In this document: positions 3,346 to 30,708 of the stretch, piece by piece | Layout: every line of letters begins with the position of its first letter | Numbering within the stretch: the first letter of the stretch is position 1 | NCBI GenBank assembly: GCA_947172415.1 | Contig: OX359194.1 | Span: 1,364,001-1,428,000, forward strand | Reading direction: 5' to 3' | DNA: 64,000 bases | Source of the DNA: Chondrosia reniformis | Lineage: Eukaryota; Porifera; Demospongiae; Chondrillida; Chondrillidae | Notes under the pieces: generated by a model | The model's database searches: none | What the model was told of the DNA's origin: nothing | The model's input: only the letters and a program-made list of their open reading frames with translations | Translations under genes and position numbers: made by a program

Positions 3346-3654
3346 CGCAAAATCTCTGTGTAAGCAATATCACTGTTGCTCGACAATCTCTGCTGCAAAT
3401 GTGACTGCTTTTCTCTTTTTTCCCCTTTTTCGATACATACATGTGATGCTTTTTTAATATATACACTTTATTGCGATGGTGCATCCTCGCAGTAAAGAAA
3501 ATACAAAATCCTGCATGAGGTAATTTAAGAGAGACTACACTAATCAACTGCATAAGCATGCATAACTGATTTAGCTACTTTGTCATTGAAATGGTGACTT
3601 TGATAGTAATCTCAATTAATGGTCTCCTAATATTCAATCACATTTATTTCCGTA

Positions 3655-3864
3655 TGCATGAAAAATCTAAGATACCATTTTCCTACATGTTGTGCCTAAT
3701 TCTGTAAAAAAGCCTATAGGGGAACTAAACCTGAAGAGAGCTTTGGATGAAAATACAGGAGTCTTTTCTTCCTTCTTTTCCTTTCTTTCATCTTCCTCTC
3801 CACTGGGTCAGACAGCCGTTTCTGGGAATTCCACCCTTCATCAGTGATCCTGGGAGTCTTTGTT
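3655..3864 (+). repeat. Dispersed repeat, copy 1 (plus)
   Basis: Best-preserved plus-strand copy of a family found across the window. Diagnostic parts in order: AATCTAAGATACCATTTTCC, CCTATAGGGGAACTAAACC, GAGAGCTTTGGATGA, CTGGGTCAGACAGCCGTTTC, GATCCTGGGAGTCTTTGT. The matching minus-strand copy is at 28205-28447. No coding potential and no clear terminal inverted repeats. Confidence 0.8.
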
Positions 3865-13621: not shown

Positions 13622-14317
13622 ATGGCATCAGAGATAATTGAGGCGGACTTGAGCAACATAACGACCAACGCCCATACGCAGGCAAAGACTACTGACAAGG
13701 AAGCGACTAAACAATCACGTTCCAAGTCTAAGCAGAAACGAAACAAAGGTACAGCCTTCAAACCAGAAGTTGAGTCTCGGCGCTCCTCCTCTGATGACTA
13801 CCTCGTGATGTATATTGAACTTACTCTCCAAGAAGCTTGGCAGGAGTACCACAATGAGATAAGATCCATTCTTACAGCCTACCCATCACTGGAGAGGAAA
13901 TTAAGGCATTCAAAAAAGATATTAGATCAGACTATTTTGTTTGTACTTGACTTAGAAGAGCCGAAACGTTTCTGGGAATTTCACCCAAAAAAGGACATTG
14001 AGGCATACCTTGACGAACTGGAAACAATTTGTTTGCAGATAATTAATGTCGTGACATACTTGTTAAGACAGACACCCCAGATAGTCAGTAGAGATTTGAA
14101 TTCAGGCCCTGCTCCATCTCATAGTAAGACTGACATTTTAATTGGCGAGAATGAGGACTTCAAAATGCTGACATATCTCTGTAATCCAAAGTATTATCAG
14201 AATGCTTTTGAGCATGGAGATGATCCTGGGGAAATAAGACCCAACGGATCAAGAGTGTCTTACAACCACAACCCCTGCTGCAACATATCAAGTTTGGAAA
14301 GATTTGTTGCATATTGA
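13622..14317 (+). CDS. Unrecognised basic/helical protein gene with damaged 3' end
   Basis: 231 codons, single exon as read. Residues 1-50 are low-complexity and basic (KQSRSKSKQKRNKG, nuclear-localisation-like). Residues about 60-160 are predicted helical (EAWQEYHNEIRSILTAYP, DIEAYLDELETICLQIINVV). I recognise no family. Compared with the 3' fragments at 16755, 21502 and 24190, this copy lacks one base in the run near 14270 and 43 bases after CAACAT near 14288. The ending is therefore out of frame: it finishes SSLERFVAY instead of the fragments' ending that closes with LHIDGDC. This is the only copy in the window with a 5' half. An AATAAA in CTGTAATAAATTAAA (near 14672-14680) is a plausible poly(A) signal. 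A functional truncated protein or a recent pseudogene are both possible. Confidence 0.6.
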   Translation: MASEIIEADLSNITTNAHTQAKTTDKEATKQSRSKSKQKRNKGTAFKPEVESRRSSSDDYLVMYIELTLQEAWQEYHNEIRSILTAYPSLERKLRHSKKILDQTILFVLDLEEPKRFWEFHPKKDIEAYLDELETICLQIINVVTYLLRQTPQIVSRDLNSGPAPSHSKTDILIGENEDFKMLTYLCNPKYYQNAFEHGDDPGEIRPNGSRVSYNHNPCCNISSLERFVAY

Positions 14318-14629
14318 TGGAGATTGTTGACTATGTTAGTCCAGTAGAGACTTAAATTAGACTACCAAACTGTTGGATTGTGCAGATATTTAGGAGTGTT
14401 GCGGATATAATGTTGTAATGTTGCATAAGGAAGAGTCTGGTGTTACTGATGGAGGTAGGTTATCACTGAAATGGTCAAGTATTTATTGGCTAAGAGGCAA
14501 CTGGAAATACAAGGGAACCAACTTGTTTCTGATTTTGGTGAAGAATAGCGATTTGCTGACAAGTTTTGTTTACTCTATAGAATTGACTCTTTTTGTCCAT
14601 TAATGTTGTCATGACAACTCCTTATATAC

Positions 14630-14750
14630 TCATGAATAATCTAATACACTCTTTTCCTACATGTTCTACTCTGTAATAAATTAAATTAAAAGCCTATTGG
14701 GAACTAAATCTGGTGAGAGCTTTGGATGAGGTTATAGGAGTGTGGAGCTA
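14630..14750 (+). repeat. Dispersed repeat, partial copy within unit 1
   Basis: Shares ATGAATAATCTA, TTTTCCTACATG, CCTATTGGGAACTAAAT and GAGAGCTTTGGATGAGG with the family copy at 3655-3864. Equivalent partial copies recur in the other units (from about 17340, 19385, 22080 and 24770). A second short copy (GGGAACTAAACTGAGCTTTAGATGAGGATA) occurs near 16410, 21150 and 23838, slightly altered near 19090 and 26490. Confidence 0.75.
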
Positions 14751-14822
14751 TATACTGAAGTAGATATATGTACGTATATAGTTAAAGAAGTAGAGTTTAG
14801 TATATAATAGTTATGGTATTCC

Positions 14823-15731
14823 TTAATTTTCTAAAATGATTGCGTTAACGGAGTAATCAAAGACAAAGCCACTCTCTGGAGTCTTCCTGCAGCAAGCATG
14901 GAGGTATTTGACACAAAGGTCGCTCATTTCTTGAGGATAGTTCTTTAGAGCAGCTTGGCAAATGAAATTTAGTACATTCTTTGAAAATTGTGAAGAAAAA
15001 TCTTCCTTAAAGCATCTATCCAAATGCCACACCCCCTTGTTTGGTAAATCTTCACTGGAATACCTCACACCTATTTCATCCAGTACCTGCAATAGATCTT
15101 GCGCATATCTGCATGGAAATTTCCATTCCTTCTCAAAGAATACCCCCCCTATTTTTTGGTTTGCTGTGAGGTTCTGAGATATAATAACAACCTTGGCATT
15201 TTCTTTAACCACCTTTTGCAGTCTCCCAAACATTGTCTTCAGATCCTTAATGTAGTAGTGGACATGAACCATAAGTACCAAATCAAACTGGGAAAGGCTG
15301 TCGAGGTCCATCTGCATGAAATCCTCATTGATAATAGTCACTTGGGTCAGCGGGAGGTCCTTAAGTGTAGCCTTGGCCATGTGACTAGATTTCTCATTAA
15401 TTTCAATACCCACGTAATTTACAGGGACTGATACATTCTGTAACATATTTCGGTCGGCCTCTCCTGCTCCACAGCCTATGCTGCATATATTGAATGGTGT
15501 TGCATCAGAATATTTAGCAATATGAGATTCTAGAGCTTTGTCAAGTATGTTGCTGACATAGCTATCCTTTTCAGCGATTTCTTCCCTGGCTATTTTGCAA
15601 AATGCAGCAAATTTTTCAGTATAATCATATTCATCACATTGGGGCAAACCTCCTTCAAGGCTCTTTCTGGGTGTCACTTCTTTAAGAATATTCTCAAGAG
15701 TTAACAGAATAGATTCCAATTCGTACTCCAT
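14823..15731 (-). CDS. HNMT-like methyltransferase, copy 1
   Basis: 302 residues, one coding exon. Class I SAM-dependent methyltransferase most like histamine N-methyltransferase: glycine-rich motif I SIGCGAGEADR (84-94), acidic YVGIEIN at strand 2 (107-112), QFDLVLMVHVHYYIKDL at motif IV (148-164) and DLLQVLDEIGVRY (212-224), in the order and spacing of human HNMT (292 aa). The human substrate is histamine; the substrate here is not known. The ATG at 15731 lies 6 nt inside the exon: acceptor TTTAG ends at 15738 and the exon opens GTGACC. A 189-nt intron joins it to a 5' UTR exon ending at a GTAAGT donor (15926). TATATAA at 16076-16082 is the likely core promoter, just past the stop of the neighbouring terminal exon. 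Intact. Confidence 0.85.
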   Translation of the reverse strand: MEYELESILLTLENILKEVTPRKSLEGGLPQCDEYDYTEKFAAFCKIAREEIAEKDSYVSNILDKALESHIAKYSDATPFNICSIGCGAGEADRNMLQNVSVPVNYVGIEINEKSSHMAKATLKDLPLTQVTIINEDFMQMDLDSLSQFDLVLMVHVHYYIKDLKTMFGRLQKVVKENAKVVIISQNLTANQKIGGVFFEKEWKFPCRYAQDLLQVLDEIGVRYSSEDLPNKGVWHLDRCFKEDFSSQFSKNVLNFICQAALKNYPQEMSDLCVKYLHACCRKTPESGFVFDYSVNAIILEN

Positions 15732-15737
15732 GGTCAC

Positions 15738-16082
15738 CTAAATATACATATATAATCCACTATGTTCTGATTATGGGGTGGTCTATATATAGCCATTGCA
15801 GGTAAGCCGCATATTGCAGGTAATTTCCTTCAAGTATTAAAAGGGAAGTGAAGCCTGGTACAATCACCAAGGCTGAGAGATGACACACTGCCACAAACTG
15901 TAGGTAGATTTTGTAATAGTACTTACTTTATCTTCAACTATTAATAATCCACTATTAAAATATAATGTAAACATACGTATATGTAGTATATAACACAATA
16001 AAACAAACAAGTTTCTCAAATATTTGTGTACATATAAAATATGAAAAGCTGGTTGCAGTTAAATGTGTATTTAGCTTATATA
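15738..16082 (-). promoter_or_regulatory. Promoter, 5' UTR exon and intron of HNMT-like copy 1
   Basis: Read leftwards: TATATAAG (16082-16075), an untranslated exon starting about 25-35 nt later, donor AAA/GTAAGT at 15926, a 189-nt intron, and acceptor TATATTTAG ending at 15738. The same arrangement exists in all five units. The donor is GTAAGT in units 1, 2 and 5 but GTCAGT in units 3 and 4. The transcription start is inferred from TATA spacing. Confidence 0.55.
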
Positions 16083-16151
16083 CAATTGTAACAATTATCT
16101 ATTCTACAAAATTCATTTCATTTTCCCTCCTCGGCTGTGACTAAAGATAAG

Positions 16152-16318
16152 CTATTCTGGGGGAAACCCTGAAGCTAGCTTGCACGGCGTCAGTCTCAGC
16201 CATCTTGCTGCCTGCTGATGAGGCGATTCGATAACATTCCTCCACAGCTCCTTCCCCTCCTCCATGGCACCCTCCCCCACCTGCACCATACCCAGGGGCA
16301 GACCAGTCCTCTCTGTGA
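16152..16318 (-). CDS. Duplicate terminal exon of the synaptotagmin-like gene, unit 1
   Basis: 167-nt exon-like segment with a strong acceptor (TTGCTCTGCAG) and in-frame TAG. It encodes the end of a C2B domain: MVQVGEGAMEEGKELWRNVI then SPHQQAARWLRL. This matches the synaptotagmin pattern of G-x-V-x-VG, W, two-residue gap, then SP and WH-L. Differences from the other copies are mostly synonymous in this frame (CTG/CTA, CTA/TTA, CCC/CCG), but here the codon ACG of other units is ATG. It is 10-14 kb downstream of the rest of the gene, so use as an alternative last exon is possible but unproven. Confidence 0.65.
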
Positions 16319-16754
16319 CTGCAGAGCAATAACAAGGACAAATCTAACACCATTTCCTACATACTATATACGTATGTCTATTCTATATACAGTCCCATAT
16401 AGGCCCATAGGGAACTAAACTGAGCTTTAGATGAGGATACAAGTGTCTGGTCTTTTTTCTTCAGAATCTGCTCCATTGAGTTAAATGAATGTGTATAGCA
16501 ACATTTACAATATTAATGCAAATGGTTAGTTTCTTGCTGTATGTATATATATGAACACCGTGAAATTAACAAGATCGTGAATGACTTTCAATGTCACTAA
16601 TAAAGGGGAGGCCAGCAATAACTCTTCTCCTGCCTTTGTCACATCTCATTATGTATATATCTGCCTTATAGGACCAAATTTTATTATACAGTAAAGATTT
16701 AATGTATACTACCAGAATTAGAGTTTTAAGGGATTCTATTAATGTTCTGATACC

Positions 16755-17030
16755 AATTCAGGACCTGCTCTATCTCATAGTAAGACTGACATTTTAATTG
16801 GCGAGAATGAGGACTTCAAAATACTGACATATCTCTGTAATCCAAAGTATTATCAGAATGCTTTTGAGCATGGAGATGATCCTGAGGAAATAAGACCCAA
16901 CGGATCAAGAGTGTCTTACAACCACAAACCCCTGCTGCAACATGGCGAGTTTTTAGCTGATAGAATTAAAGAAAGTGACTATCTTTATCAAGTTTGGAAA
17001 GATTTGTTGCATATTGATGGAGATTGTTGA
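16755..17030 (+). pseudogene. 3' fragment of the unrecognised gene, unit 2
   Basis: Corresponds to the last third of the gene at 13622-14317, starting at the AATTCAGG breakpoint. Unlike that gene it keeps the 43-nt segment and ends in frame with VWKDLLHIDGDC then TGA. No start codon or 5' half precedes it. Confidence 0.8.
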
Positions 17031-17529
17031 CTATGTTAGTCCAGTAGAGGCTGAGACTAACAAGCTATTGGATTGTGCAGATTTTATTATACAGTAAAGA
17101 TTTATAGGAGTGTTGTGGATATAATGTTGTAATGTTGCATAAGGAAGAGTCTGGTGTTACTGATGGAGGAAGGTTATCACTGAAATGGTCAAGTATTTAT
17201 TGGCTAAGAGGCAACTGGAAATACAAGGGAACCAACTTGTTTCTGATTTTGGTAAAGAATAGCGATTTGCTGACAAGTTTTGTTTACTCTATAGAATTGA
17301 TTCTTTTTGTCCGTTAATGTTGTCATGACAACTCCTTATATACTCATGAATAATCTACTACACTCTTTTCCTACATGTAGTACTCTGTAATAAATTAAAT
17401 TAAAAGCCTATTGGGAACTAAATCTGGTGAGAGCTTTGGATGAGGTTATAGGAGTATGAAGCTAGACTGAAGTAGATATATGTACGTATATAGTTAAAGA
17501 AGTAGAGTTTAGTTTAGTTATGGTATTCC

Positions 17530-18438
17530 TTAATTTTCTAAAATGATTGCGTTAATGGAGTAATCAAAGACAAGGTCACTCTCCGGAGTCTTCCTGCAGC
17601 AGGCATGGAGGTATTTGACACAAAGGTTGATCACTTCTTGAGGATAGTTCTTTAGAGCAGTTTGGTAAATGAAATCTAGTACATTCTTTGAAAATTGTGA
17701 AGAAAAATCTTCCTTAAAGCATCTATCCAAATGCCACACCCCCTTGTTTGGTAAATCTTCACTGGAATACCTCACACCTATTTCATCCAGTACCTGCAAT
17801 AGATCTTGCGCATATCTGCATGGAAATTTCCATTCCTTCTCAAAGAATACCCCCCATATTTTTTGTTTTGCTGTGAGGTTCAGAGATATAATAACAATCT
17901 TGGCATTTTCTTTAGCCACCTTTTGCAGTCTCCCAAACATTATCTTCAGATCCTTAATGTAGTAATGGACATGAACCATAAGTACCAAATCAAACTGGGA
18001 AAGGCTGTCGAGGTCCATCTGCATGAAATCCTCATTGATAATAGTCACTTGGGTCAGCGGGAGGTCCTTAAGTGTAGCCTTGGCCATGTGACTAGATTTC
18101 TCATTAATTTCAATACCCACGTAATTTACAGGGACTGATACATTCTGTAACATAATTCGGTCGGCCTCTCCTGCTCCACAGCCTATGCTGCATATATTGA
18201 ATGGTGTTGCATCAGAATATTTAGCAATATGAGATTCTAGAGCTTTGTCAAGTATGTTGCTGACATAGCTATCCTTTTCAGCAATTTCTTCCCTGGCTAT
18301 TTTGCAATATGCAGCGTAATTTTCAGTATAATCATATTCATCACATTGGGGCAAACCTTCTTCAAGGTTCTTCCTGGGTTTCACCTCTTTAAGAATATTC
18401 TCAAGAGTTAACAGAATAGATTCCAATTCGTACTCCAT
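17530..18438 (-). CDS. HNMT-like methyltransferase, copy 2
   Basis: 302 residues, intact, same organisation as copy 1. Motif I is SIGCGAGEADR. It differs from copy 1 at scattered positions: EEGLPQC for EGGLPQC, ENYAAYC for EKFAAFC, IMLQN for NMLQN, and a changed SLNLTAKQKIWG segment. The 5' donor is consensus GTAAGT. Confidence 0.85.
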   Translation of the reverse strand: MEYELESILLTLENILKEVKPRKNLEEGLPQCDEYDYTENYAAYCKIAREEIAEKDSYVSNILDKALESHIAKYSDATPFNICSIGCGAGEADRIMLQNVSVPVNYVGIEINEKSSHMAKATLKDLPLTQVTIINEDFMQMDLDSLSQFDLVLMVHVHYYIKDLKIMFGRLQKVAKENAKIVIISLNLTAKQKIWGVFFEKEWKFPCRYAQDLLQVLDEIGVRYSSEDLPNKGVWHLDRCFKEDFSSQFSKNVLDFIYQTALKNYPQEVINLCVKYLHACCRKTPESDLVFDYSINAIILEN

Positions 18439-18846
18439 GGTCACCTAAATATACATAACCCACTATGTTCTGATCATGGGGTGGTCTATATATAGCCATT
18501 GCAGGTAAGCCACATATTGCAGGTAATTTCCTTCAAGTATTAAAAGGGAAGTGAAGCCTGGTACAATCACCAAGGCTGAGAGATGACACACTGCCACAAA
18601 CTGTAGGTAGTTTTGTAATAGTACTTACTTTATCTTCAACTAATCCACTATTAAAACATAATGTAGACGTACGTATATGTAGTATATAACACAATAAAAC
18701 AAACAAGTTTCTCAAATATTTGTGTACATATAAAATATGAAAAGATGGTTACAGTTAAGTGTGTATTTAGCTTATATACAATTGTAACATTATCTATTCT
18801 ACAAAATTCATTTCATTTTCCCTCCTCGGCTGTGACTAAAGATAAG

Positions 18847-19013
18847 CTATTCTGGCGGAAACCCTGAAGCTAACTTGCACGGCGTCAGTCTTAGCCATCT
18901 TGCTGCCTGCTGATGAGGCGATTCGATAACATTCCTCCACAGCTCCTTCCCCTCCTCCGTGGCACCCTCCCCCACCTGCACCATACCCAGGGGCAGACCA
19001 GTCCTCTCTGTGA
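18847..19013 (-). CDS. Duplicate terminal exon of the synaptotagmin-like gene, unit 2
   Basis: Same 167-nt exon as in the other units, acceptor and TAG intact, with the ATEEGKELWRNVIESP form. Reads in the phase needed by exon 7. Confidence 0.65.
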
Positions 19014-19289
19014 CTGCAGAGCAATAACAAGGACAAATCTAACACCATTTCCTACATACTATGTCTATTCTATACAGTAAAAGACCCATAGGGAAATAAA
19101 CTGAGCTTTAGATGAGGATAAAAGAGTCTATTCTTTTTTCTTCTGCTCCATTGAGTAAAATGAATGTGTATAGCAACATTTACAATGCAAATGGTTAGTT
19201 TCTTGCTATATGTACGTATGTACTATATAGCAACACAGTGAAATTCACAAGACCGTGAATGACTTTCAAAGTGTCACTAATAAAGAGGA

Positions 19290-19300
19290 GGCCAGTGAAG
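19290..19300. other. Deletion junction between units 2 and 3
   Basis: GAGGCCA-GTGA-AGAATAGCG joins the sequence normally followed by TAACTC (as at 26700) to the sequence normally preceded by TTTTG (as at 17250). The shared GTGA suggests microhomology-mediated loss of about 640 bp, including the plus-strand gene fragment of unit 3. Confidence 0.75.
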
Positions 19301-19574
19301 AATAGCGATTTGCTGACAAGTTTTGTTTACTCTATAGAATTGATTCTTTTTGTCCGTTAATGTTGTCATGACAACTCCTTATATACTCATGAATAATCTA
19401 CTACACTCTTTTCCTACATGTAGTACTCTGTAATAAATTAAATTAAAAGCCTATTGGGAACTAAATCTGGTGAGAGCTTTGGATGAGGTTATAGGAGTGT
19501 GGAGCCATAGACTGAAGTAGATATATGTACATATATAGTTAAAGAAGTAGAGTTTAGTTTAGTTATGGTATTCC

Positions 19575-20483
19575 TTAATTTTCTAAAATGATTGCGTTAA
19601 TGGAGTAATCAAAGACAAGGTCACTCTCCGGAGTCTTCCTGCAGCAGGCATGGAGGTATTTGACACAAAGGTTGCTCACTTCTTGAGGATAGTTCTTTAG
19701 AGCAGTTTGGTAAATGAAATCTAGTACATTCTTTGAAAATTGTGAAGAAAAATCTTCCTTAAAGCATCTATCCAAATGCCACACCCCCTTGTTTGGTAAA
19801 TCTTCACTGGAATACCTCACACCCATTTCATCCAGTACCTGCAATAGATCTTGCGCATATCTGCATGGAAATTTCCATTCCTTCTCAAAGAATACCCCCC
19901 ATATTTTTTGTTTTGCTGTGAGGTTCAGAGATATAATAACAATATTGGCATTTTCTTTAGCCACCTTTTGCAGTCTCCCAAACATTATCTTCAGATCCTT
20001 AATGTAGTAATGGACATGAACCATAAGTACCAAATCAAACTGGGAAAGGCTGTCGAGGTCCATCTGCATGAAATCCTCATTGATAATAGTCACTTGGGTC
20101 AGCGGGAGGTCCTTAAGTGTAGCCTTGGCCATGTGACTAGATTTCTCATTAATTTCAATACCCACGTAATTTACAGGGACTGATACATTCTGTAACATAA
20201 TTCGGTCGGCCTCTCCTGCTCCACAGCCTATGCTGCATATATTGAATGGTGTTGCATCAGAATATTTAGCAATATGAGATTCTAGAGCTTTGTCAAGTAT
20301 GTTGCTGACATAGCTATCCTTTTCAGCAATTTCTTCCCTGGCTATTTTGCAAAATGCAGCGTAATTTTCAGTATAATCATATTCATCACATTGGGGCAAA
20401 CCTCCTTCAAGGTTCTTCCTGGGTTTCACCTCTTTAAGAATATTCTCAAGAGTTAACAGAATAGATTCCAATTCGTACTCCAT
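19575..20483 (-). CDS. HNMT-like methyltransferase, copy 3
   Basis: 302 residues, intact and nearly identical to copies 2 and 4 (ENANIVIIS, LDEMGVRY). Its 5' UTR intron has a GTCAGT donor instead of GTAAGT, so splicing of the leader may differ. Confidence 0.85.
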   Translation of the reverse strand: MEYELESILLTLENILKEVKPRKNLEGGLPQCDEYDYTENYAAFCKIAREEIAEKDSYVSNILDKALESHIAKYSDATPFNICSIGCGAGEADRIMLQNVSVPVNYVGIEINEKSSHMAKATLKDLPLTQVTIINEDFMQMDLDSLSQFDLVLMVHVHYYIKDLKIMFGRLQKVAKENANIVIISLNLTAKQKIWGVFFEKEWKFPCRYAQDLLQVLDEMGVRYSSEDLPNKGVWHLDRCFKEDFSSQFSKNVLDFIYQTALKNYPQEVSNLCVKYLHACCRKTPESDLVFDYSINAIILEN

Positions 20484-20892
20484 GGTCACCTAAATATACA
20501 TAACCCACTATGTTCTGATCATGGGGTGGTCTATATATAGCCATTGCAGGTAAGCCACATATTGCAGGTAATTTCCTTCAAGTATTAAAAGGGAAGTGAA
20601 GCCTGGTACAATCACCAAGGCTGAGAGATGACACACTGCCACAAACTGTAGGTAGTTTTGTAATAGTACTGACTTTATCTTCAACTAATCCACTATTAAA
20701 ACATAATGTAGACGTACGTATATGTAGTATATAACACAATAAAACAAACAAGTTTCTCAAATATTTGTGTACATATAAAATATGAAAAGATGGTTACAGT
20801 TAAGTGTGTATTTAGCTTATATACAATTGTAACAATTATCTATTCTACAAAATTCATTTCATTTTCCCTCCTCGGCTGTGACTAAAGATAAG

Positions 20893-21059
20893 CTATTCTG
20901 GCAGAAACCCTGAAGCTAGCTTGCACGGCGTCAGTCTTAGCCATCTTGCTGCCTGCTGATGAGGCGATTCGATAACATTCCTCCACAGCTCCTTCCCCTC
21001 CTCCGTGGCACCCTCCCCCACCTGCACCATACCCAGGGGCAGACCAGTCCTCTCTGTGA
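20893..21059 (-). CDS. Duplicate terminal exon of the synaptotagmin-like gene, unit 3
   Basis: Intact 167-nt exon. One codon near the stop is CTG where other units have CCG or CCC, giving SGFLPE instead of SGFPPE. Confidence 0.6.
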
Positions 21060-21501
21060 CTGCAGAGCAATAACAAGGACAAATCTAACACCATTTCCTA
21101 CATACTATGTACGTATGTCTATTCTATATACAGTCCCATATAGGCCCATAGGGAACTAAACTGAGCTTTAGATGAGGATACAAGTGTCTGGTCTTTTTTC
21201 TTCAGAATCTGCTCCATTGAGTTAAATGAATGTGTATAGCAACATTTACAATATTAATGCAAATGGTTAGTTTCTTGCTGTATGTATATATATATATATG
21301 AACACAGTGAAATTAACAAGATCGTGAATGACTTTCAATGTCACTAATAAAGGGGAGGCCAGCAATAACTCTTCTCCTGCCTTTGTCACATCTCATTATG
21401 TATATATCTGCCTTATAGGACCAAATTTTATTATACAGTAAAGATTTAATGTATACTACCAGAATTAGAGTTTTAAGGGATTCTATTAATGTTCTGATAC
21501 C

Positions 21502-21777
21502 AATTCAGGACCTGCTCTATCTCATAGTAAGACTGACATTTTAATTGGCGAGAATGAGGACTTCAAAATACTGACATATCTCTGTAATCCAAAGTATTAT
21601 CAGAATGCTTTTGAGCATGGAGATGATCCTGGGGAAATAAGACCCAACGGATCAAGAGTGTCTTACAATCACAAACCCCTGCTGCAACATGGCAAGTTTT
21701 TAGCTGATAGAATTAAAGAAAGTGACTATCTTTATCAAGTTTGGAAAGATATGTTGCATATTGATGGAGATTGTTGA
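21502..21777 (+). pseudogene. 3' fragment of the unrecognised gene, unit 4
   Basis: As the unit 2 fragment; ends in frame VWKDMLHIDGDC then TGA. No 5' half. Confidence 0.8.
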
Positions 21778-22262
21778 CTATGTTAGTCCAGTAGAGACTT
21801 AAATTAGACTACCAAACTGTTGGATTGTGCAGATATATAGGAGTGTTGCGGATATAATGTTGTAATGTTGCATAAGGAAGAGTCTGGTGTTACTGATGGA
21901 GGAAGGTTATCACTGAAATGGTCAAGTATTTATTGGCTAAGAGGCAACTGGAAATACAAGGGAACCAACTTGTTTCTGATTTTGGTGAAGAATAGCGATT
22001 TGCTGACAAGTTTTGTTTACTCTATAGAATTGATTCTTTTTGTCCGTTAATGTTGTCATGACAACTCCTTATATACTCATGAATAATCTACTACACTCTT
22101 TTCCTACATGTAGTACTCTGTAATAAATTAAATTAAAAGCCTATTGGGAACTAAATCTGGTGAGAGCTTTGGATGAGGTTATAGGAGTATGAAGCTAGAC
22201 TGAAGTAGATATATGTACGTATATAGTTAAAGAAGTAGAGTTTAGTTTAGTTATGGTATTCC

Positions 22263-23171
22263 TTAATTTTCTAAAATGATTGCGTTAATGGAGTAATCAA
22301 AGACAAAGCCACTCTCTGGAGTCTTCCTGCAGCAGGCATGGAGGTATTTGACACAAAGGTCGCTCACTTCTTGAGGATAGTTCTTTAGAGCAGTGTGGTA
22401 AATGAAATCTAGTACATTCTTTGAAAATTGTGAAGAAAAATCTTCCTTAAAGCATCTATCCAAATGCCACACCCCCTTGTTTGGTAAATCTTCACTGGAA
22501 TACCTCACACCCATTTCATCCAGTACCTGCAATAGATCTTGCGCATATCTGCATGGAAATTTCCATTCCTTCTCAAAGAATACCCCCCATATTTTTTGTT
22601 TTGCTGTGAGGTTCAGAGATATAATAACAATATTGGCATTTTCTTTAGCCACCTTTTGCAGTCTCCCAAACATTATCTTCAGATCCTTAATGTAGTAATG
22701 GACATGAACCATAAGTACCAAATCAAACTGGGAAAGGCTGTCGAGGTCCATCTGCATGAAATCCTCATTGATAATAGTCACTTGGGTCAGCGGGAGGTCC
22801 TTAAGTGTAGCCTTGGCCATGTGACTAGATTTCTCATTAATTTCAATACCCACGTAATTTACAGGGACTGATACATTCTGTAACATAATTCGGTCGGCCT
22901 CTCCTGCTCCACAGCCTATGCTGCATATATTGAATGGTGTTGCATCAGAATATTTAGCAATATGAGATTCTAGAGCTTTGTCAAGTATGTTGCTGACATA
23001 GCTATCCTTTTCAGCAATTTCTTCCCTGGCTATTTTGCAAAATGCAGCGTAATTTTCAGTATAATCATATTCATCACATTGGGGCAAACCTCCTTCAAGG
23101 TTCTTTCTGGGTTTCACCTCTTTAAGAATATTCTCAAGAGTTAACAGAATAGATTCCAATTCGTACTCCAT
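22263..23171 (-). CDS. HNMT-like methyltransferase, copy 4
   Basis: 302 residues, intact. Near-identical to copy 3, with a C-terminal part (SDLCVKYLHACC, PESGFVFDYS) partly shared with copy 1, a mosaic pattern that suggests gene conversion. GTCAGT donor in the leader intron. Confidence 0.85.
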   Translation of the reverse strand: MEYELESILLTLENILKEVKPRKNLEGGLPQCDEYDYTENYAAFCKIAREEIAEKDSYVSNILDKALESHIAKYSDATPFNICSIGCGAGEADRIMLQNVSVPVNYVGIEINEKSSHMAKATLKDLPLTQVTIINEDFMQMDLDSLSQFDLVLMVHVHYYIKDLKIMFGRLQKVAKENANIVIISLNLTAKQKIWGVFFEKEWKFPCRYAQDLLQVLDEMGVRYSSEDLPNKGVWHLDRCFKEDFSSQFSKNVLDFIYHTALKNYPQEVSDLCVKYLHACCRKTPESGFVFDYSINAIILEN

Positions 23172-23580
23172 GGTCACCTAAATATACATAACCCACTATG
23201 TTCTGATCATGGGGTGGTCTATATATAGCCATTGCAGGTAAGCCACATATTGCAGGTAATTTCCTTCAAGTATTAAAAGGGAAGTGAAGCCTGGTACAAT
23301 CACCAAGGCTGAGAGATGACACACTGCCACAAACTGTAGGTAGTTTTGTAATAGTACTGACTTTATCTTCAACTAATCCACTATTAAAACATAATGTAGA
23401 CGTACGTATATGTAGTATATAACACAATAAAACAAACAAGTTTCTCAAATATTTGTGTACATATAAAATATGAAAAGATGGTTACAGTTAAGTGTGTATT
23501 TAGCTTATATACAATTGTAACAATTATCTATTCTACAAAATTCATTTCATTTTCCCTCCTCGGCTGTGACTAAAGATAAG

Positions 23581-23747
23581 CTATTCTGGCGGAAACCCTG
23601 AAGCTAGCTTGCACGGCGTCAGTCTTAGCCATCTTGCTGCCTGCTGATGAGGCGATTCGATAACATTCCTCCACAGCTCCTTCCCCTCCTCCGTGGCACC
23701 CTCCCCCACCTGCACCATACCCAGGGGCAGACCAGTCCTCTCTGTGA
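23581..23747 (-). CDS. Duplicate terminal exon of the synaptotagmin-like gene, unit 4
   Basis: Intact 167-nt exon with acceptor and TAG, same reading frame as the other copies. Confidence 0.65.
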
Positions 23748-24189
23748 CTGCAGAGCAATAACAAGGACAAATCTAACACCATTTCCTACATACTATGTAC
23801 GTATGTCTATTCTATATACAGTCCCATATAGGCCCATAGGGAACTAAACTGAGCTTTAGATGAGGATACAAGTGTCTGGTCTTTTTTCTTCAGAATCTGC
23901 TCCATTGAGTTAAATGAATGTGTATAGCAACATTTACAATATTAATGCAAATGGTTAGTTTCTTGCTGTATGTATATATATATATATGAACACAGTGAAA
24001 TTAACAAGATCGTGAATGACTTTCAATGTCACTAATAAAGGGGAGGCCAGCAATAACTCTTCTCCTGCCTTTGTCACATCTCATTATGTATATATCTGCC
24101 TTATAGGACCAAATTTTATTATACAGTAAAGATTTAATGTATACTACCAGAATTAGAGTTTTAAGGGATTCTATTAATGTTCTGATACC

Positions 24190-24465
24190 AATTCAGGACC
24201 TGCTCTATCTCATAGTAAGACTGACATTTTAATTGGCGAGAATGAGGACTTCAAAATACTGACATATCTCTGTAATCCAAAGTATTATCAGAATGCTTTT
24301 GAGCATGGAGATGATCCTGGGGAAATAAGACCCAACGGATCAAGAGTGTCTTACAACCACAACCCCTTGCTGCAACATGGCAAGTTTTTAGCTGATAGAA
24401 TTAAAGAAAGTGACTATCTTTATCAAGTTTGGAAAGATATGTTGCATATTGATGGAGATTGTTGA
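24190..24465 (+). pseudogene. 3' fragment of the unrecognised gene, unit 5
   Basis: As the other fragments. Here the CAACCCCTTG run keeps the frame, ending VWKDMLHIDGDC then TGA. No 5' half. Confidence 0.8.
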
Positions 24466-24949
24466 CTATGTTAGTCCAGTAGAGACTTAAATTAGACTAC
24501 CAAACTGTTGGATTGTGCAGATATATAGGAGTGTTGCGGATATAATGTTGTAATGTTGCATAAGGAAGAGTCTGGTGTTACTGATGGAAGAAGGTTATCA
24601 CTGAAATGGTCAAGTATTTATTGGCTAAGAGGCAACTGGAAATACAAGGGAACCAACTTGTTTCTGATTTTGGTGAAGAATAGCGATTTGCTGACAAGTT
24701 TTGTTTACTCTATAGAATTGATTCTTTTTGTCCGTTAATGTTGTCATGACAACTCCTTATATACTCATGAATAATCTACTACACTCTTTTCCTACATGTA
24801 ATAAATTAAATTAAAAAGCCTATTGGGAACTAAATCTGGTGAGAGTTTTGGATGAGGTTATAGGAGTGTGGAGCTAGATAGAAGTAGATATATGTACGTA
24901 TATAGTTAAAGAAGTAGAGTTTAGTATAGTTATGGTATTCCTTAATTTT

Positions 24950-25849
24950 CTAAAATGATTGCGTTAACGGAGTAATCAAAGACAGGTCACTCTCCGGAGT
25001 CTTCCTGCAGCAGGCATGGAGGTATTTGACACAAAGGTTGCTCACTTCTTGAGGATAGTTCTTTAGAGCAGTTTGGTAAATGAAATCTAGTACATTCTTT
25101 GAAAATTGTGAAGAAAAATCTTCCTTAAAGCATTTATCCAAATGCCACACCCCTTTGTTTGGTAAATCTTCACTGGAATACCTCACACCCATTTCATCCA
25201 GTACCTGCAATAGATCTTGCGCATATCTGCATGGAAATTTCCATTCCTTCTCAAAGAATACCCCCCATATTTTTTGTTTTGCTGTGAGGTTCAGAGATAT
25301 AATAACAATATTGGCATTTTCTTTAGCCACCTTTTGCAGTCTCCCAAACATTATCTTCAGATCCTTAATGTAGTAATGGACATGAACCATAAGTACCAAA
25401 TCAAACTGGGAAAGGCTGTCGAGGTCCATCTGCATGAAATCCTCATTGATAATAGTCACTTGGGTCAGCGGGAGGTCCTTAAGTGTAGCCTTGGCCATGT
25501 GACTAGATTTCTCATTAATTTCAATACCCACGTAATTTACAGGGACTGATACATTCTCTAACATAATTCGGTCGGCCTCTCCTGCTCCACAGCCTATGCT
25601 GCATATATTGAATGGTGTTGCATCAGAAAATTTAGCAATATGAGATTCTAGAGCTTTGTCAAGTATGTTGCTGACATAGCTATCCTTTTCAGCAATTTCT
25701 TCCCTGGCTATTTTGCAATATGCAGCGTAATTTTCAGTATAATCATATTCATCACATTCAGGCAAACCTCCTTCAAGGTTCTTTCTGGGTGTCACCTCCT
25801 TAAGAATATTCTCAAGAGTTAACAGAATAGATTCCAATTCGTACTCCAT
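24950..25849 (-). CDS. HNMT-like methyltransferase, copy 5, altered C-terminus
   Basis: 299 residues. One A is missing near 24983 (GACAGG where copy 3 has GACAAGG), so after PESDL the chain reads SLITPLTQSF and stops, replacing about 13 C-terminal residues. The SAM-binding motif and the rest are intact. The leader exon opens GCGACC rather than GTGACC, which shows that the ATG at 25849, not an upstream GTG, is the start. The GTAAGT donor is intact. The lost segment corresponds to the last strand of the HNMT fold, so activity is doubtful. Confidence 0.75.
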   Translation of the reverse strand: MEYELESILLTLENILKEVTPRKNLEGGLPECDEYDYTENYAAYCKIAREEIAEKDSYVSNILDKALESHIAKFSDATPFNICSIGCGAGEADRIMLENVSVPVNYVGIEINEKSSHMAKATLKDLPLTQVTIINEDFMQMDLDSLSQFDLVLMVHVHYYIKDLKIMFGRLQKVAKENANIVIISLNLTAKQKIWGVFFEKEWKFPCRYAQDLLQVLDEMGVRYSSEDLPNKGVWHLDKCFKEDFSSQFSKNVLDFIYQTALKNYPQEVSNLCVKYLHACCRKTPESDLSLITPLTQSF

Positions 25850-26251
25850 GGTCGCCTAAATATACATATATAATCCACTACGTTCTGATCATGGGGTAGC
25901 CTATATATAGCCATTGCAGGTAAGCCACACATTGCAGGTAATTTCCTTCAAGGGAAGTGAAACCTGGTACAATTACCAAGGCTGAGAGATGACACACTGC
26001 CACAAACTGTAGGTAGTTTTGTAATAGTACTTACTTTATCTTCAACTAATCCACTATTAAAACATAATGCAGACATACGTATATGTAGTATATAACACAA
26101 TGAAACAAAAAGCTTCTCAAATATTTGTGTACATATAAAATATGAAAAGATGGTTGCAGTTAAATGTGTATTTAGCTTATATACAATTGTAACATTATCT
26201 ATTCTACAAAATTCATTTCATTTTCCCTCCTCGGCTGTGACTAAAGATAAG

Positions 26252-29200
26252 CTATTCTGGCGGAAACCCTGAAGCTAACTTGCACGGCGTCAGTCTTAGC
26301 CATCTTGCTGCCTGCTGATGAGGCGATTCGATAACATTCCTCCACAGCTCCTTCCCCTCCTCCGTGGCACCCTCCCCCACCTGCACCATACCCAGGGGCA
26401 GACCAGTCCTCTCTGTGACTGCAGAGCAATAACAAGGACAAATCTAACACCATTTCCTACATACTATGTCTATTCTATACAGTAAAAGACCCATAGGGAA
26501 ATAAACTGAGCTTTAGATGAGGATAAAAGAGTCTATTCTTTTTTCTTCTGCTCCATTGAGTAAAATGAATGTGTATAGCAACATTTACAATGCAAATGGT
26601 TAGTTTCTTGCTATATGTACGTATGTACTATATAGCAACACAGTGAAATTCACAAGACCGTGAATGACTTTCAATGTGTCACTAATAAAGAGGAGGCCAG
26701 TGATAACTCTTCTCCTGCCTTTGTCACATCTCATTATGTAGCTATCTGCCTTAGGACCAAAATTTATTTTACAGTAAAGATTTAATCTACCACCAGAATT
26801 AGAGTCATAAGGGATTCTATTAATATTCTGATACCAGAGTCTGTTAATTCATGAATAACTTCCAGTGTCACTAATAAAGGAGAATCCGAGAAACAGCTGT
26901 CTGACCCAGTTGAAAAGAAGAGGTAAAAAGAGAAGATGACTTTATTCTCATCCAAAGCTCTAAAATTGGTGAGTTTATCCTAGCCATAGGAATGTTTGTG
27001 GTATTTCTTGAATAACTGGTGATATTGGTATTAAGCATGTGGCACAGTTTTAACTACGTAACTTTCTTCTCTTATAAACTTATATACCTCAGCAGTATAG
27101 AAGATGTTGCACACAAGCAACAGAAACAGGCCCTTTTGTACTTCCAATGTTACATACACAGTCCGACATTTTACATAGGTGAATATATGAGAACTTACCT
27201 TCAGGAGACTTTGCCAGTACTACTATATTCAAAGTGATATTTTCCAAGCTAGCATCTTGAGAAACTTGAAATTGGAATTTCTGATTAAAAGTTGGATTCG
27301 GAGGAGCATGTTTTCCAGAGGAGTTCCATTTCTTGCTACCTTTCTTCTGACCTTCAGCTAAATAGGCCTTCACTTGGACGTCTACAAAACAGACACGTCA
27401 CATAATGTGAACTGTTTGTCACATACGGTACGTACGGAAATGGCGTTTCCATTCGAAGTTTAGAACTTCGCAAGTGAACTTCGATAAAACTTCGCTGAGG
27501 TTCGGTTAATCTTCGCTCGAACATCCTTAGTAACAGGAATTTGTTTGTAACTTCGGTCGAACTTCGATCACATGTCGGTCAAACTTCAGCTAAACTTCGG
27601 ACAAACTTCACGAAGTTTTCCGTTTCCGTACGTACCGTATGTAAAGTATTGTTCCATTTGCAACCACCTAAACAACAAATCTACACATGTACCAATGTTA
27701 ACATCATATCTATGAGAATCTATTTGATTTCTCCACCAAAGTCAACTGGTCCAACAAGTATACATAGCAGCATATGTAATATCTTCCGGTGGAAATTCAA
27801 TTTTCATCATAATCTTTGAACAGGTTTAGTAACAGGTAACCCTTTAATCATTTAATCAAGTACGTGCATATATCCATTATTACCTTAATTGTGTACATAC
27901 ATATATGTATATACGTATGGACCTATGTATGTACGTGTTGAACACACATACGTTCACTTACCTACTGGACCAGAAAGACTGGGAAGTTGCAAGTTTTTAG
28001 CTTTCAGTATAATTCCGTGCAGCCTTTTCTCCTGTTCATAGTAGCCTAGCGACACTAGGATCTCTGGGCTCTCTTTGGGCTATATAGGAGATAGAGAGTT
28101 GCACAGTATTGAACACACTACATTGACACCTCTGAACTACGTCCCAAGGAAGTCCTATGTACATATATTGAGTTGGTATACAACTGTATGTATGTACACA
28201 TAGGATTCAAGCCAAGGATTCACAGAAGATCAAGATAAAGACAAAGACTCCCAGGATCACTGATGAAGGGTGGAATTCCCAGAAACGGCTGTCTGACCCA
28301 GTGGAGAAGAAGATGAAAGAAGGGTTAAGAAGGAAGAAAAGACTCGTGTATCTTCATTCAAAGCTCTCTTCAGGTTTAGTTCACCTATAGGCTCTTTTAC
28401 ATAATAGGCATATAGCATGTAGGAAAATGGTATCTTAGATTTTTCATACGTAGGTAATATTACTTACCCCAATCTGTTTCTGTGCATCAAATGAAATTGG
28501 TAGAAGTGTCTGAGTACCTGATAAGTCAGCATCTGATAGAGCATGCTTGACTTCACCAATATACTCCTGTTGACCTATTAATATAAGTGAGTGGGTTTGA
28601 AGATTCAAATATTCACACATTGCCATGAAATAGACCTATGTACAGTGTGCAATCATTAAATAGTTACTAACCTGTATTTAACTGGTTGAAAATTTGAATA
28701 ACTATTGTTTTAAACTTAATCTCCATGGCTGATATATTTGAAAATGTAAAAACCTCTTCGAGAAGATTTCTAGTGGACGTACCACTTCTAGTCTTAGACC
28801 TGTAACTCTGAGAAATATTCGGAAGTAGTTGAACTACTAAAAAGGTATCCAGAACTGAGGTAGTCTCCTTTTCGATTTTGCTTCCAACACCGTGAATTTG
28901 GTATGAGATTGAGTGTACACATAACTGCTGTTGTTCGGGATAGTAGGACATACCAAACTGAACTGAGGGTTCCTTCACTTTGAACATGTCCAAACTTGGT
29001 TGCTATGGAAATGGAAGAAACTATGTACAGTTGATGTAATCCTACCAGTTGTCATGTAGTAGACATGCTTGTACATATGTGATTATAGTAAAGATGACAG
29101 TCAACAAGTTTGGGTAATGAAATGGAGAATTCAAAATGGCTGTAAGGTACAAACTTGTGAATAAGATGAGGAAGAAAGTACACTGGAGGTCTCGGCACTG

Positions 29201-30708
29201 GAGCTGACATTAGAGGAGGTTTTGGGAAGTGAACCTACAGTAGAGTAAATAAATAAATAAATAAGTAAAGCTACAAATAGGTACATACTTAGCTTAAAAA
29301 TCAATGTGCTAGACTATGATCTTCTGAAGTATTCTCACATGTACATACATATATACTATACATGCATTATTTACAACACTCCATACGTATATGGTGCAAA
29401 AGCAATACCTGGTTGTTTCAGTGTCCTAGGCTGCCGGGGACGTGGCACTGCCTTGGGCTGTTGTTTAATAATAGACACGTCTGAACCCTTGTAGAGAAAT
29501 AGTTGATACATAGACCAACTGGTAGAAATAGTTGATACATAGACCGACTGGTAGAAACAGTGATACATAGACCGACTGGTAAAAACAGTGATATATAGAC
29601 CGACTGGTAGAAACAGTGATACATAGACCGACTGGTAGAAACAGTGATACATAGACCGACTGGTAAAAACAGTGATATATAGACCGACTGGTAGAAATAG
29701 TTGATACATAGACCGACTGGTAGAAACAGTGATACATAGACCGACTGGTAGAAATAGTTGATACATAGACCGACTGGTAGAAATAGTTGATACATAGACC
29801 AACTGGTAGAAACAGTGATACATAGACCGACTGGTAGAAACAGTGATACATAGACCGACTGGTAAAAACAGTGATATATAGACCGACTGGTAGAAATAGT
29901 TGATACATAGACCGACTGGTAGAAACAGTGATACATAGACCGACTGGTAAAAACAGTGATATATAGACCGACTGGTAGAAATAGTTGATACATAGACCGA
30001 CTGGTAGAAACAGTGATACATAGACCGACTGGTAGAAATAGTTGATACATAGACCGACTGGTAGAAACAGTGATACATAGACCGACTGGTAGAAACAGTG
30101 ATACATAGACCGACTGGTAGAAATAGTTGATACATAGACCGACTGGTAGAAATAGTTGATACATAGACCGACTGGTAGAAATAGTTGATACATAGACCGA
30201 CTGGTAGAAATAGTTGATACATAGACCGACTGGTAGAAACAGTGATACATAGACCGACTGGTAGAAATAGTTGATACATAGACCAACTGGTAGAAACAGT
30301 GATACATAGACCGACTGGTAAAAACAGTGATATATAGACCGACTGGTAAAAACAGTGATATATAGACCAACTGGTAGAAACAGTGATACATAGACCGACT
30401 GGTAGAAACAGTGATACATAGACCGACTGGTAAAAACAGTGATATATAGACCGACTGGTACTACATCTTACTTCTACATATAAATTCATATATGTATTTG
30501 TGTGTACATACGTACGTACCTCTTTAGCGGAAGACTGAATAGAACTGGGTGGCTGTTGCATCTTTACTGTTTTGGTCATTGGACCAGTGGGCGGGGTGTC
30601 CGGGGTGATTACAGCCGCATAGGCATCCCTAGGATTCTTGTAAGGAACTTCATCTTTATTGTAGCAACACGGACAGCAGCAAGCACAGAACCGCGAACAA
30701 CAGTCCAT
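26252..30708 (-). CDS. Synaptotagmin-like double C2 protein without transmembrane helix
   Basis: Eight exons read leftwards: 30708-30520, 29487-29409, 29234-29155, 29002-28672, 28574-28468, 28079-27962, 27381-27199, 26418-26252. Junctions are GT-AG and phases (0,1,0,1,0,1,1) agree, giving 417 residues. The N-terminus MDCCSRFCACCCPCCYNK is a cysteine cluster suited to palmitoylation, with no transmembrane helix in this model; SYT17 (B/K) is built this way. A Pro/Ser-rich linker follows. C2A is about 130-262 (VQFGMSYYPEQQQ, VLDTFLVVQLLPN, IGEVKHALS), C2B about 263-405 (ILVSLGYYEQEKRLHGIILK, VDVQVKAYLAEGQKKG, NPTFNQKF, ELWRNVIESP). The Asp ligands in Ca2+-binding loops 1 and 3 of classical synaptotagmins are mostly absent, so calcium-independent membrane or partner binding is likely. 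A further upstream 5' exon is possible: acceptor-like TTTGCTGTAG near 30770. The last exon lies in duplicated unit 5, with four more copies beyond. Confidence 0.75.
26880..26975 (-). repeat. Dispersed repeat, partial copy (minus)
   Basis: GAGAAACAGCTGTCTGACCC and TCATCCAAAGCTCTA are reverse complements of the family core at 3655-3864. It lies within intron 7 of the synaptotagmin-like gene, just outside the tandem array. Confidence 0.65.
27421..27642. mobile_element. 222-bp MITE with 20-bp terminal inverted repeats
   Basis: Perfect termini ACATACGGTACGTACGGAAA at 27421-27440 and its complement at 27623-27642. The interior is packed with AACTTCG/GAACTTCG motifs roughly every 11-12 bp, many in opposite orientation in the two halves. 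No coding capacity. It sits in intron 6 of the synaptotagmin-like gene. Superfamily not recognised. Confidence 0.75.
28205..28447 (-). repeat. Dispersed repeat, long copy (minus)
   Basis: Most complete copy of the family: reverse complement of 3655-3864 extended to GATCTTCTGTGAATCCTTGGC, an extension also seen in diverged form at 31865-31895. It lies in intron 5 of the synaptotagmin-like gene. Confidence 0.8.
29498..30461 (-). repeat. Minisatellite of 28/29-bp units, about 34 copies
   Basis: Unit TAGACCGACTGGTAGAAACAGTGATACA with variants: the 29-bp form has AAATAGTT; another form has GGTAAAAACAGTGATATATA. It fills nearly all of intron 1 (29488-30519) of the synaptotagmin-like gene. The minus strand has no stop codon in any frame, which creates three overlapping long frames. 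The intron is 1032 nt (344 codons), so retention would keep the frame. Confidence 0.95.

Follow-up and report, generated by a model that had tools for sequence, protein, structure and literature searches.

A tandem array beside a synaptotagmin-like gene

We analyzed a window of 64,000 nucleotides from Chondrosia reniformis (assembly GCA_947172415.1, contig OX359194.1, positions 1,364,001 to 1,428,000). A BLAST comparison of the window with itself, together with an alignment of the repeated units, revealed five head-to-tail units (U1 to U5) at 14099-26836 (Table 1). On its minus strand, every unit contains a single HNMT-like open reading frame (ORF). Each unit also includes one copy of exon 8, which is the terminal exon of a synaptotagmin-like gene and has an identical AG acceptor throughout. 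Four of the five units, all but U3, additionally contain a plus-strand ORF tail. U5 continues unbroken into the remainder of the synaptotagmin-like gene, whose single-copy portion (26837-30708) lies outside the array. Identity between units is 95.91-99.55% across the 10 pairs when gap-free aligned columns are compared, and approximately 93-97% where BLAST segments count gaps. By either measure, the similarity far exceeds chance.

A preliminary description of this DNA had proposed a tandem array that multiplies a methyltransferase gene together with the last synaptotagmin-like exon, and the five units found by self-BLAST and unit alignment bear this out. It had placed the array at 14099-30708; the start is correct, but the array proper stops at 26836. 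It had also described units of ~2.69 kb, each joining parts of three genes. The three-gene composition is found in four of the five units and not in U3, which lacks the plus-ORF tail. The lengths are not uniform but range from 2207 to 2688 bp, with U3 and U2 shortened at opposite ends; U2 lacks the last 141 alignment columns. The methyltransferase is the only complete gene of the duplicated unit.

Table 1. Coordinates of the array units, genes and exon copies within the window
Feature	Position	Strand	Description	Basis
U1	14099-16754		2656 bp; adjoins 5' part of plus-strand ORF	self-BLAST, unit alignment
U2	16755-19294		2540 bp; 3' end truncated at U2/U3 junction	unit alignment
U3	19295-21501		2207 bp; lacks first 502 alignment columns, including entire plus-ORF tail	
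U4	21502-24189		2688 bp; longest unit	
U5	24190-26836		2647 bp; runs on into single-copy part of synaptotagmin-like intron 7	
HNMT-like ORF, copy 1 (U1)	14823-15731	-	302 aa, intronless	
HNMT-like ORF, copy 2 (U2)	17530-18438	-	302 aa	
HNMT-like ORF, copy 3 (U3)	19575-20483	-	302 aa	
HNMT-like ORF, copy 4 (U4)	22263-23171	-	302 aa	
HNMT-like ORF, copy 5 (U5)	24950-25849	-	299 aa, 1-bp deletion near 3' end	
Plus-strand ORF	13622-14317	+	3' part forms left end of unit	
Plus-ORF tail (U2)	16755-17030	+	without 5' part	
Plus-ORF tail (U4)	21502-21777	+	without 5' part	
Plus-ORF tail (U5)	24190-24465	+	without 5' part	
Synaptotagmin-like exons 1-7	27199-30708	-	single-copy	inferred from open frame and GT-AG
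Exons 1-4 as joined	30708-30520, 29487-29409, 29234-29155, 28999-28672	-		
Exons 5-7 as joined	28574-28468, 28079-27962, 27381-27199	-		
Exon 8 copy (U1)	16152-16318	-	peptide differs, T>M	
Exon 8 copy (U2)	18847-19013	-	same peptide as U5	
Exon 8 copy (U3)	20893-21059	-	peptide differs, P>L	
Exon 8 copy (U4)	23581-23747	-	same peptide as U5	
Exon 8 (U5)	26252-26418	-	closest to exon 7; part of synaptotagmin-like gene	

The repeated gene encodes a predicted HNMT-like methyltransferase

All five methyltransferase frames are open. The only alteration lies in the final residues of the U5 copy, where the 1-bp deletion replaces the last 13 residues with 10 others. Five general methyltransferase models of Pfam, as well as NodS, match the ORF above cutoff. 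When PDB chains were searched with phmmer (E up to 0.01), only human HNMT was found (two sequences, E = 5e-9), and a profile built from the five copies (E up to 0.001) again found only human HNMT (E = 3e-10). The residues GCGAGE at positions 86-91, invariant in all five copies, align to GGGAGE of the human enzyme; we take this to be the AdoMet-binding motif.

Comparison at the substrate site is more mixed. In the phmmer alignment, with positions counted by hand, Tyr147 and Cys196 of human HNMT are retained as Y160 and C207, and Gln143 is replaced by H156. Glu28 aligns to E50 in a low-confidence stretch that the profile alignment leaves out, and Asn283 falls outside both alignments. These five residues are described as substrate contacts of human HNMT (PMC9867436, PMC3660329). 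An AlphaFold2 model of the methyltransferase was of low confidence (mean pLDDT 38). Taken together, the matches lead us to predict that the product is an HNMT-like enzyme.

We also looked for relatives in two contig collections. Pattern matches numbered 2 in viral_contigs and 29 in genome_contigs, none of them confirmed, and as viral or prokaryotic collections these have little bearing on animals. The plus-strand ORF gave no match in Pfam or PDB, each searched at E up to 1.

The synaptotagmin-like gene faces five copies of its last exon

The synaptotagmin-like gene comprises eight exons with inferred borders. The preliminary description had placed its start at 30708, the end of exon 7 at 27199 and exon 8 at 26252-26418, and these coordinates match the joined gene model. 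Exon 4 as joined starts three bases past its AG; a start at 29002 would be more regular, adding one codon and leaving the frame unchanged. Intron 1 holds a 28-bp minisatellite of 34 copies (29495-30460).

The joined protein matches the Pfam C2 domain in two stretches (E = 5e-15). Among PDB chains, it matches Syt7 over residues 159-404 (E = 1.5e-14) and Syt1 over residues 165-404 (E = 1.6e-14), in each case covering both C2 domains. When we looked for the Ca2+-loop aspartates of C2B, the aspartate segment of Syt1, presumably its last C2B Ca2+ loop, aligned to an aspartate-free stretch where exons 7 and 8 meet. Cysteines are abundant in the predicted N terminus.

In all five exon 8 copies the acceptor, frame and stop are intact, and all five are in phase with exon 7, confirming the earlier count of five in-phase candidate last exons. 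The distance to the exon 7 donor is 780 bp for the U5 copy and 3.5-10.9 kb for the other four. We detected no gap runs in exon 8, compared with 20 in the noncoding DNA of the units (P = 0.095), and its five changes comprise two replacement and three silent changes (P = 0.15). Neither test is significant for selection on exon 8.

The methyltransferase frame is retained among the copies

With unit truncations excluded, the 909 bp of the methyltransferase frame contain 1 gap run, whereas noncoding unit DNA contains 20 over 1336 bp (one-sided P = 0.0003). Substitutions tell a different story. The first 867 nt carry 39 changes among copies, 28 replacement and 11 silent; codon 290 was left out because the 1-bp deletion shifts it in U5 and gives artefact changes. 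Neutrally, 29.3 of the 39 would be expected to be replacement changes, and the observed 28 show no deficit (P = 0.38). The absence of nonsense changes is likewise unremarkable (P = 0.19). Pairwise dN/dS, computed on 870 nt and therefore including the codon shifted in U5, was 0.33-1.14 in nine of ten pairs and undefined in one.

The changes are not spread evenly. Codons 99-157, a stretch of 59 codons, show no change in any copy (P = 0.006), containing none of the 28 replacement changes (P = 0.002) and none of the 11 silent ones (P = 0.08). Conservation of the AdoMet core would fit this observation, but so would a tract of gene conversion, as silent changes are also lacking in this stretch. The case for selection on the copies thus rests on frame retention and the unchanged 59 codons. 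Codons 166-289 carry 18 replacement versus 4 silent changes. Two further replacement changes fall where the alignment to human HNMT, weak here, places Phe19 and Phe22, residues near the substrate pocket; for Phe19 this location is described in PMC9867436.

Shared junctions point to a single founding event

Three of the four internal junctions (U1/U2, U3/U4 and U4/U5) are identical in sequence. At this shared junction, synaptotagmin-like intron 7 meets the 3' part of the plus-strand ORF, and the two sides have no more than 1 bp in common. Three identical junctions imply one founding breakpoint, and their structure points to a single founding event by non-homologous joining. The U2/U3 junction differs. 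Here U2 lacks its end and U3 its start, and GTGA is common to both sides when U5 and U4 sequence is used as a stand-in for the missing parts. This junction probably arose by a separate deletion.

Tandem arrays can undergo concerted evolution by unequal exchange, and inner units that are alike between divergent outer units are expected if units exchange sequence. In the columns shared by all five units, the array resembles this pattern, with 34 private changes in U1 and 24 in U5, compared with 3 in U2, 2 in U3 and 1 in U4. However, the array departs from it in having five units only, in its first 502 columns and at its 3' ends. In the first 502 columns, from which U3 is absent, U2 carries the most private changes (8, versus 5 in U1, 3 in U5 and 1 in U4), and the divergence of this inner unit does not fit simple homogenisation. 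Sites grouping U2 and U5 against the other units number 21, of which 19 lie beyond column 2350. The units accordingly fall into two 3'-end types, U1, U3 and U4 versus U2 and U5, which differ by 5-10% in the alignment windows of the unit's final part. These two types of intron end may perhaps derive from two haplotypes.

Two haplotypes raise the question of whether the array, or its unit number, is an artefact of haplotype joining or of misassembly of a shorter array. The long satellite arrays in the same window, which are hard to assemble, lend this some weight, as do the two 3'-end types. However, if a single-copy locus were represented by both haplotypes, neighboring genes would be repeated whole, and not one internal junction three times. 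In addition, every unit has changes of its own, down to the single one in U4. We therefore consider an assembly artefact very unlikely.

We favor a tandem segmental duplication with the HNMT-like methyltransferase as its sole complete gene, and hold this best explanation of the locus to be likely. The ancestral order would have been the plus-strand gene, the methyltransferase on the minus strand and the synaptotagmin-like gene, also on the minus strand. Breaks in the 3' part of the plus-strand gene and in synaptotagmin-like intron 7 would then have been joined to give a dimer; the junctions are observed directly, and the event is our reconstruction. Exchange between homologous units probably enlarged the dimer to five units, and may have kept the inner units similar to one another along most of their extent. 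A subsequent deletion, leaving GTGA where the ends were joined, would have fused U2 to U3. U1 is the unit that adjoins the body of the plus-strand gene, and U5 supplies the nearest exon 8. One feature is not predicted by the duplication model. The plus-ORF tail of U1 (14270-14317), the only copy attached to the ORF body, is frameshifted, with 1-bp and 43-bp gaps relative to U2, U4 and U5. These are the only two gap runs in the 276 bp of the tail.

The likeliest meaning of the array is probably methyltransferase dosage or early divergence. Each unit carries a complete methyltransferase copy, and the internal plus-ORF tails and exon 8 copies, fragments of the neighbors, would be passengers. Of the three outcomes raised in the preliminary description, this corresponds to the modest one, the expansion of a small-molecule methyltransferase family, which our analysis supports.

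Transcript signals and alternative products

The other two proposed outcomes, alternative C2B ends and read-through chimeras, depend on where transcripts begin, splice and end. TATATA occurs 54-60 bp upstream of the methyltransferase ATG in all five copies, although it is a weak signal that recurs in the same AT-rich spacer. AATAAA is found approximately 330 bp past the methyltransferase stop in four of the five copies; in U3, the 280 bp examined past the stop contained none. Four signals were searched for in the spacer that separates exon 8 from the methyltransferase ATG: AATAAA, ATTAAA and TATAAA are absent from all five copies, and only AATACA was found. A spacer with AATACA only leaves room for read-through, and separate ends for the two genes are at most suggested by these motifs.

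If exon 7 can be spliced to any of the five exon 8 copies, the synaptotagmin-like gene would have alternative terminal exons, and its transcripts would differ in their 3' UTR and cross methyltransferase genes. The five intact acceptors and frames, all in phase with exon 7, would permit this. The lack of gap runs in exon 8, the silent nature of three of its five changes and spacers in which AATACA was the only signal found point in the same direction. However, the constraint tests fell short of significance, and four of the copies are separated from the exon 7 donor by kilobases, the U5 exon being by far the nearest. Furthermore, the peptides of U2, U4 and U5 are identical and those of U1 and U3 each differ by one residue, so the copies would not diversify the C2B end. 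These data argue against alternative C2B ends as a source of diversity, and we regard alternative terminal exons as highly improbable.

A more ambitious reading would make the array a young engine for methyltransferase specificities, in which the AdoMet core is frozen, the outer parts change and the neighboring gene, spliced in frame from exon 1, 3 or 5, provides exons or its promoter for some of the copies. We give this very little credence.

For read-through chimeras, we examined the 22-23 AG sites in the spacer from exon 8 to the methyltransferase ATG. In none of the five copies does any of them keep an exon 7 fusion in frame through the ATG, so further exons must be skipped. From exons 1, 3 and 5, whose donors are phase 0, an in-frame join to an AG located six bases upstream of the ATG is formally possible in all five copies. 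Such fusions could supply a methyltransferase copy with the cysteine-rich N terminus or the promoter of the synaptotagmin-like gene. No canonical AATAAA lies between the genes. A lizard HNMT-like protein has an N terminus nearly identical to that of another protein (PMC3660329). However, the AG before the ATG may be due to chance, and the upstream TATATA could be the methyltransferase's own promoter. As judged from these splice sites and motifs, the proposal of chimeric synaptotagmin-methyltransferase transcripts is weakened, and we consider them the least probable of the alternatives.

Relation to known duplications

Genes of the hnmt-like type are known in tandem from chordates, hemichordates and echinoderms, including four neighboring hnmt-like genes in the acorn worm, and the available text reports no protostome orthologues (PMC3660329). 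Among the literature matches listed, only this study bears on tandem hnmt-like genes, and others may be in print. Like these deuterostome hnmt/hnmt-like tandems, the array consists of neighboring copies of the HNMT family. In contrast to them, its copies are intronless and nearly identical and are accompanied by fragments of both neighbors, an arrangement that the available text of PMC3660329 does not describe.

The formation of partial genes and chimeras through duplication is a studied class (PMC5460883; reviewed in PMC3449122). In the partial-gene tandem duplications of Drosophila yakuba, breakpoints within genes give partial copies and possible chimeric structures, as they do here (PMC5460883). 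What sets this locus apart from the cases in the portions available of PMC5460883 and PMC3449122 is that it contains five copies of such a unit. The locus therefore looks like tandem gene duplication of the ordinary sort, and not like a novel type of gene system. It illustrates how, when breakpoints fall inside two neighboring genes, the resulting repeat unit multiplies the gene that those two flank. The array would be of greater importance if its copies had different substrates; the chicken hnmt-like duplicate, for example, is carnosine N-methyltransferase (PMC3660329).

Other features of the window

Most of the right half of the window (34659-64000) is filled by a 169-bp satellite, which is broken by six copies of a spacer. 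Four spacers are 1389-1391 bp long, one is 2013 bp as cut and one is cut by the window end. Near the start of every spacer is an inverted monomer-like stretch. The spacers are 99.3-100% identical over aligned columns, and the satellite arrays are 85-91% identical to the consensus monomer; such uniform spacers amid diverged monomers are odd.

A dispersed repeat of ~220 bp occurs at 28241-28460 and, on the opposite strand, at 3645-3863, the two copies being 91% identical. Shorter pieces of it are found near 31.8 kb, near 33.6 kb and in every unit of the array. At the left end of the window, a plus-strand ORF of 358 aa (1557-2633) encodes a trypsin-like domain (Trypsin_2, E = 1.7e-7).
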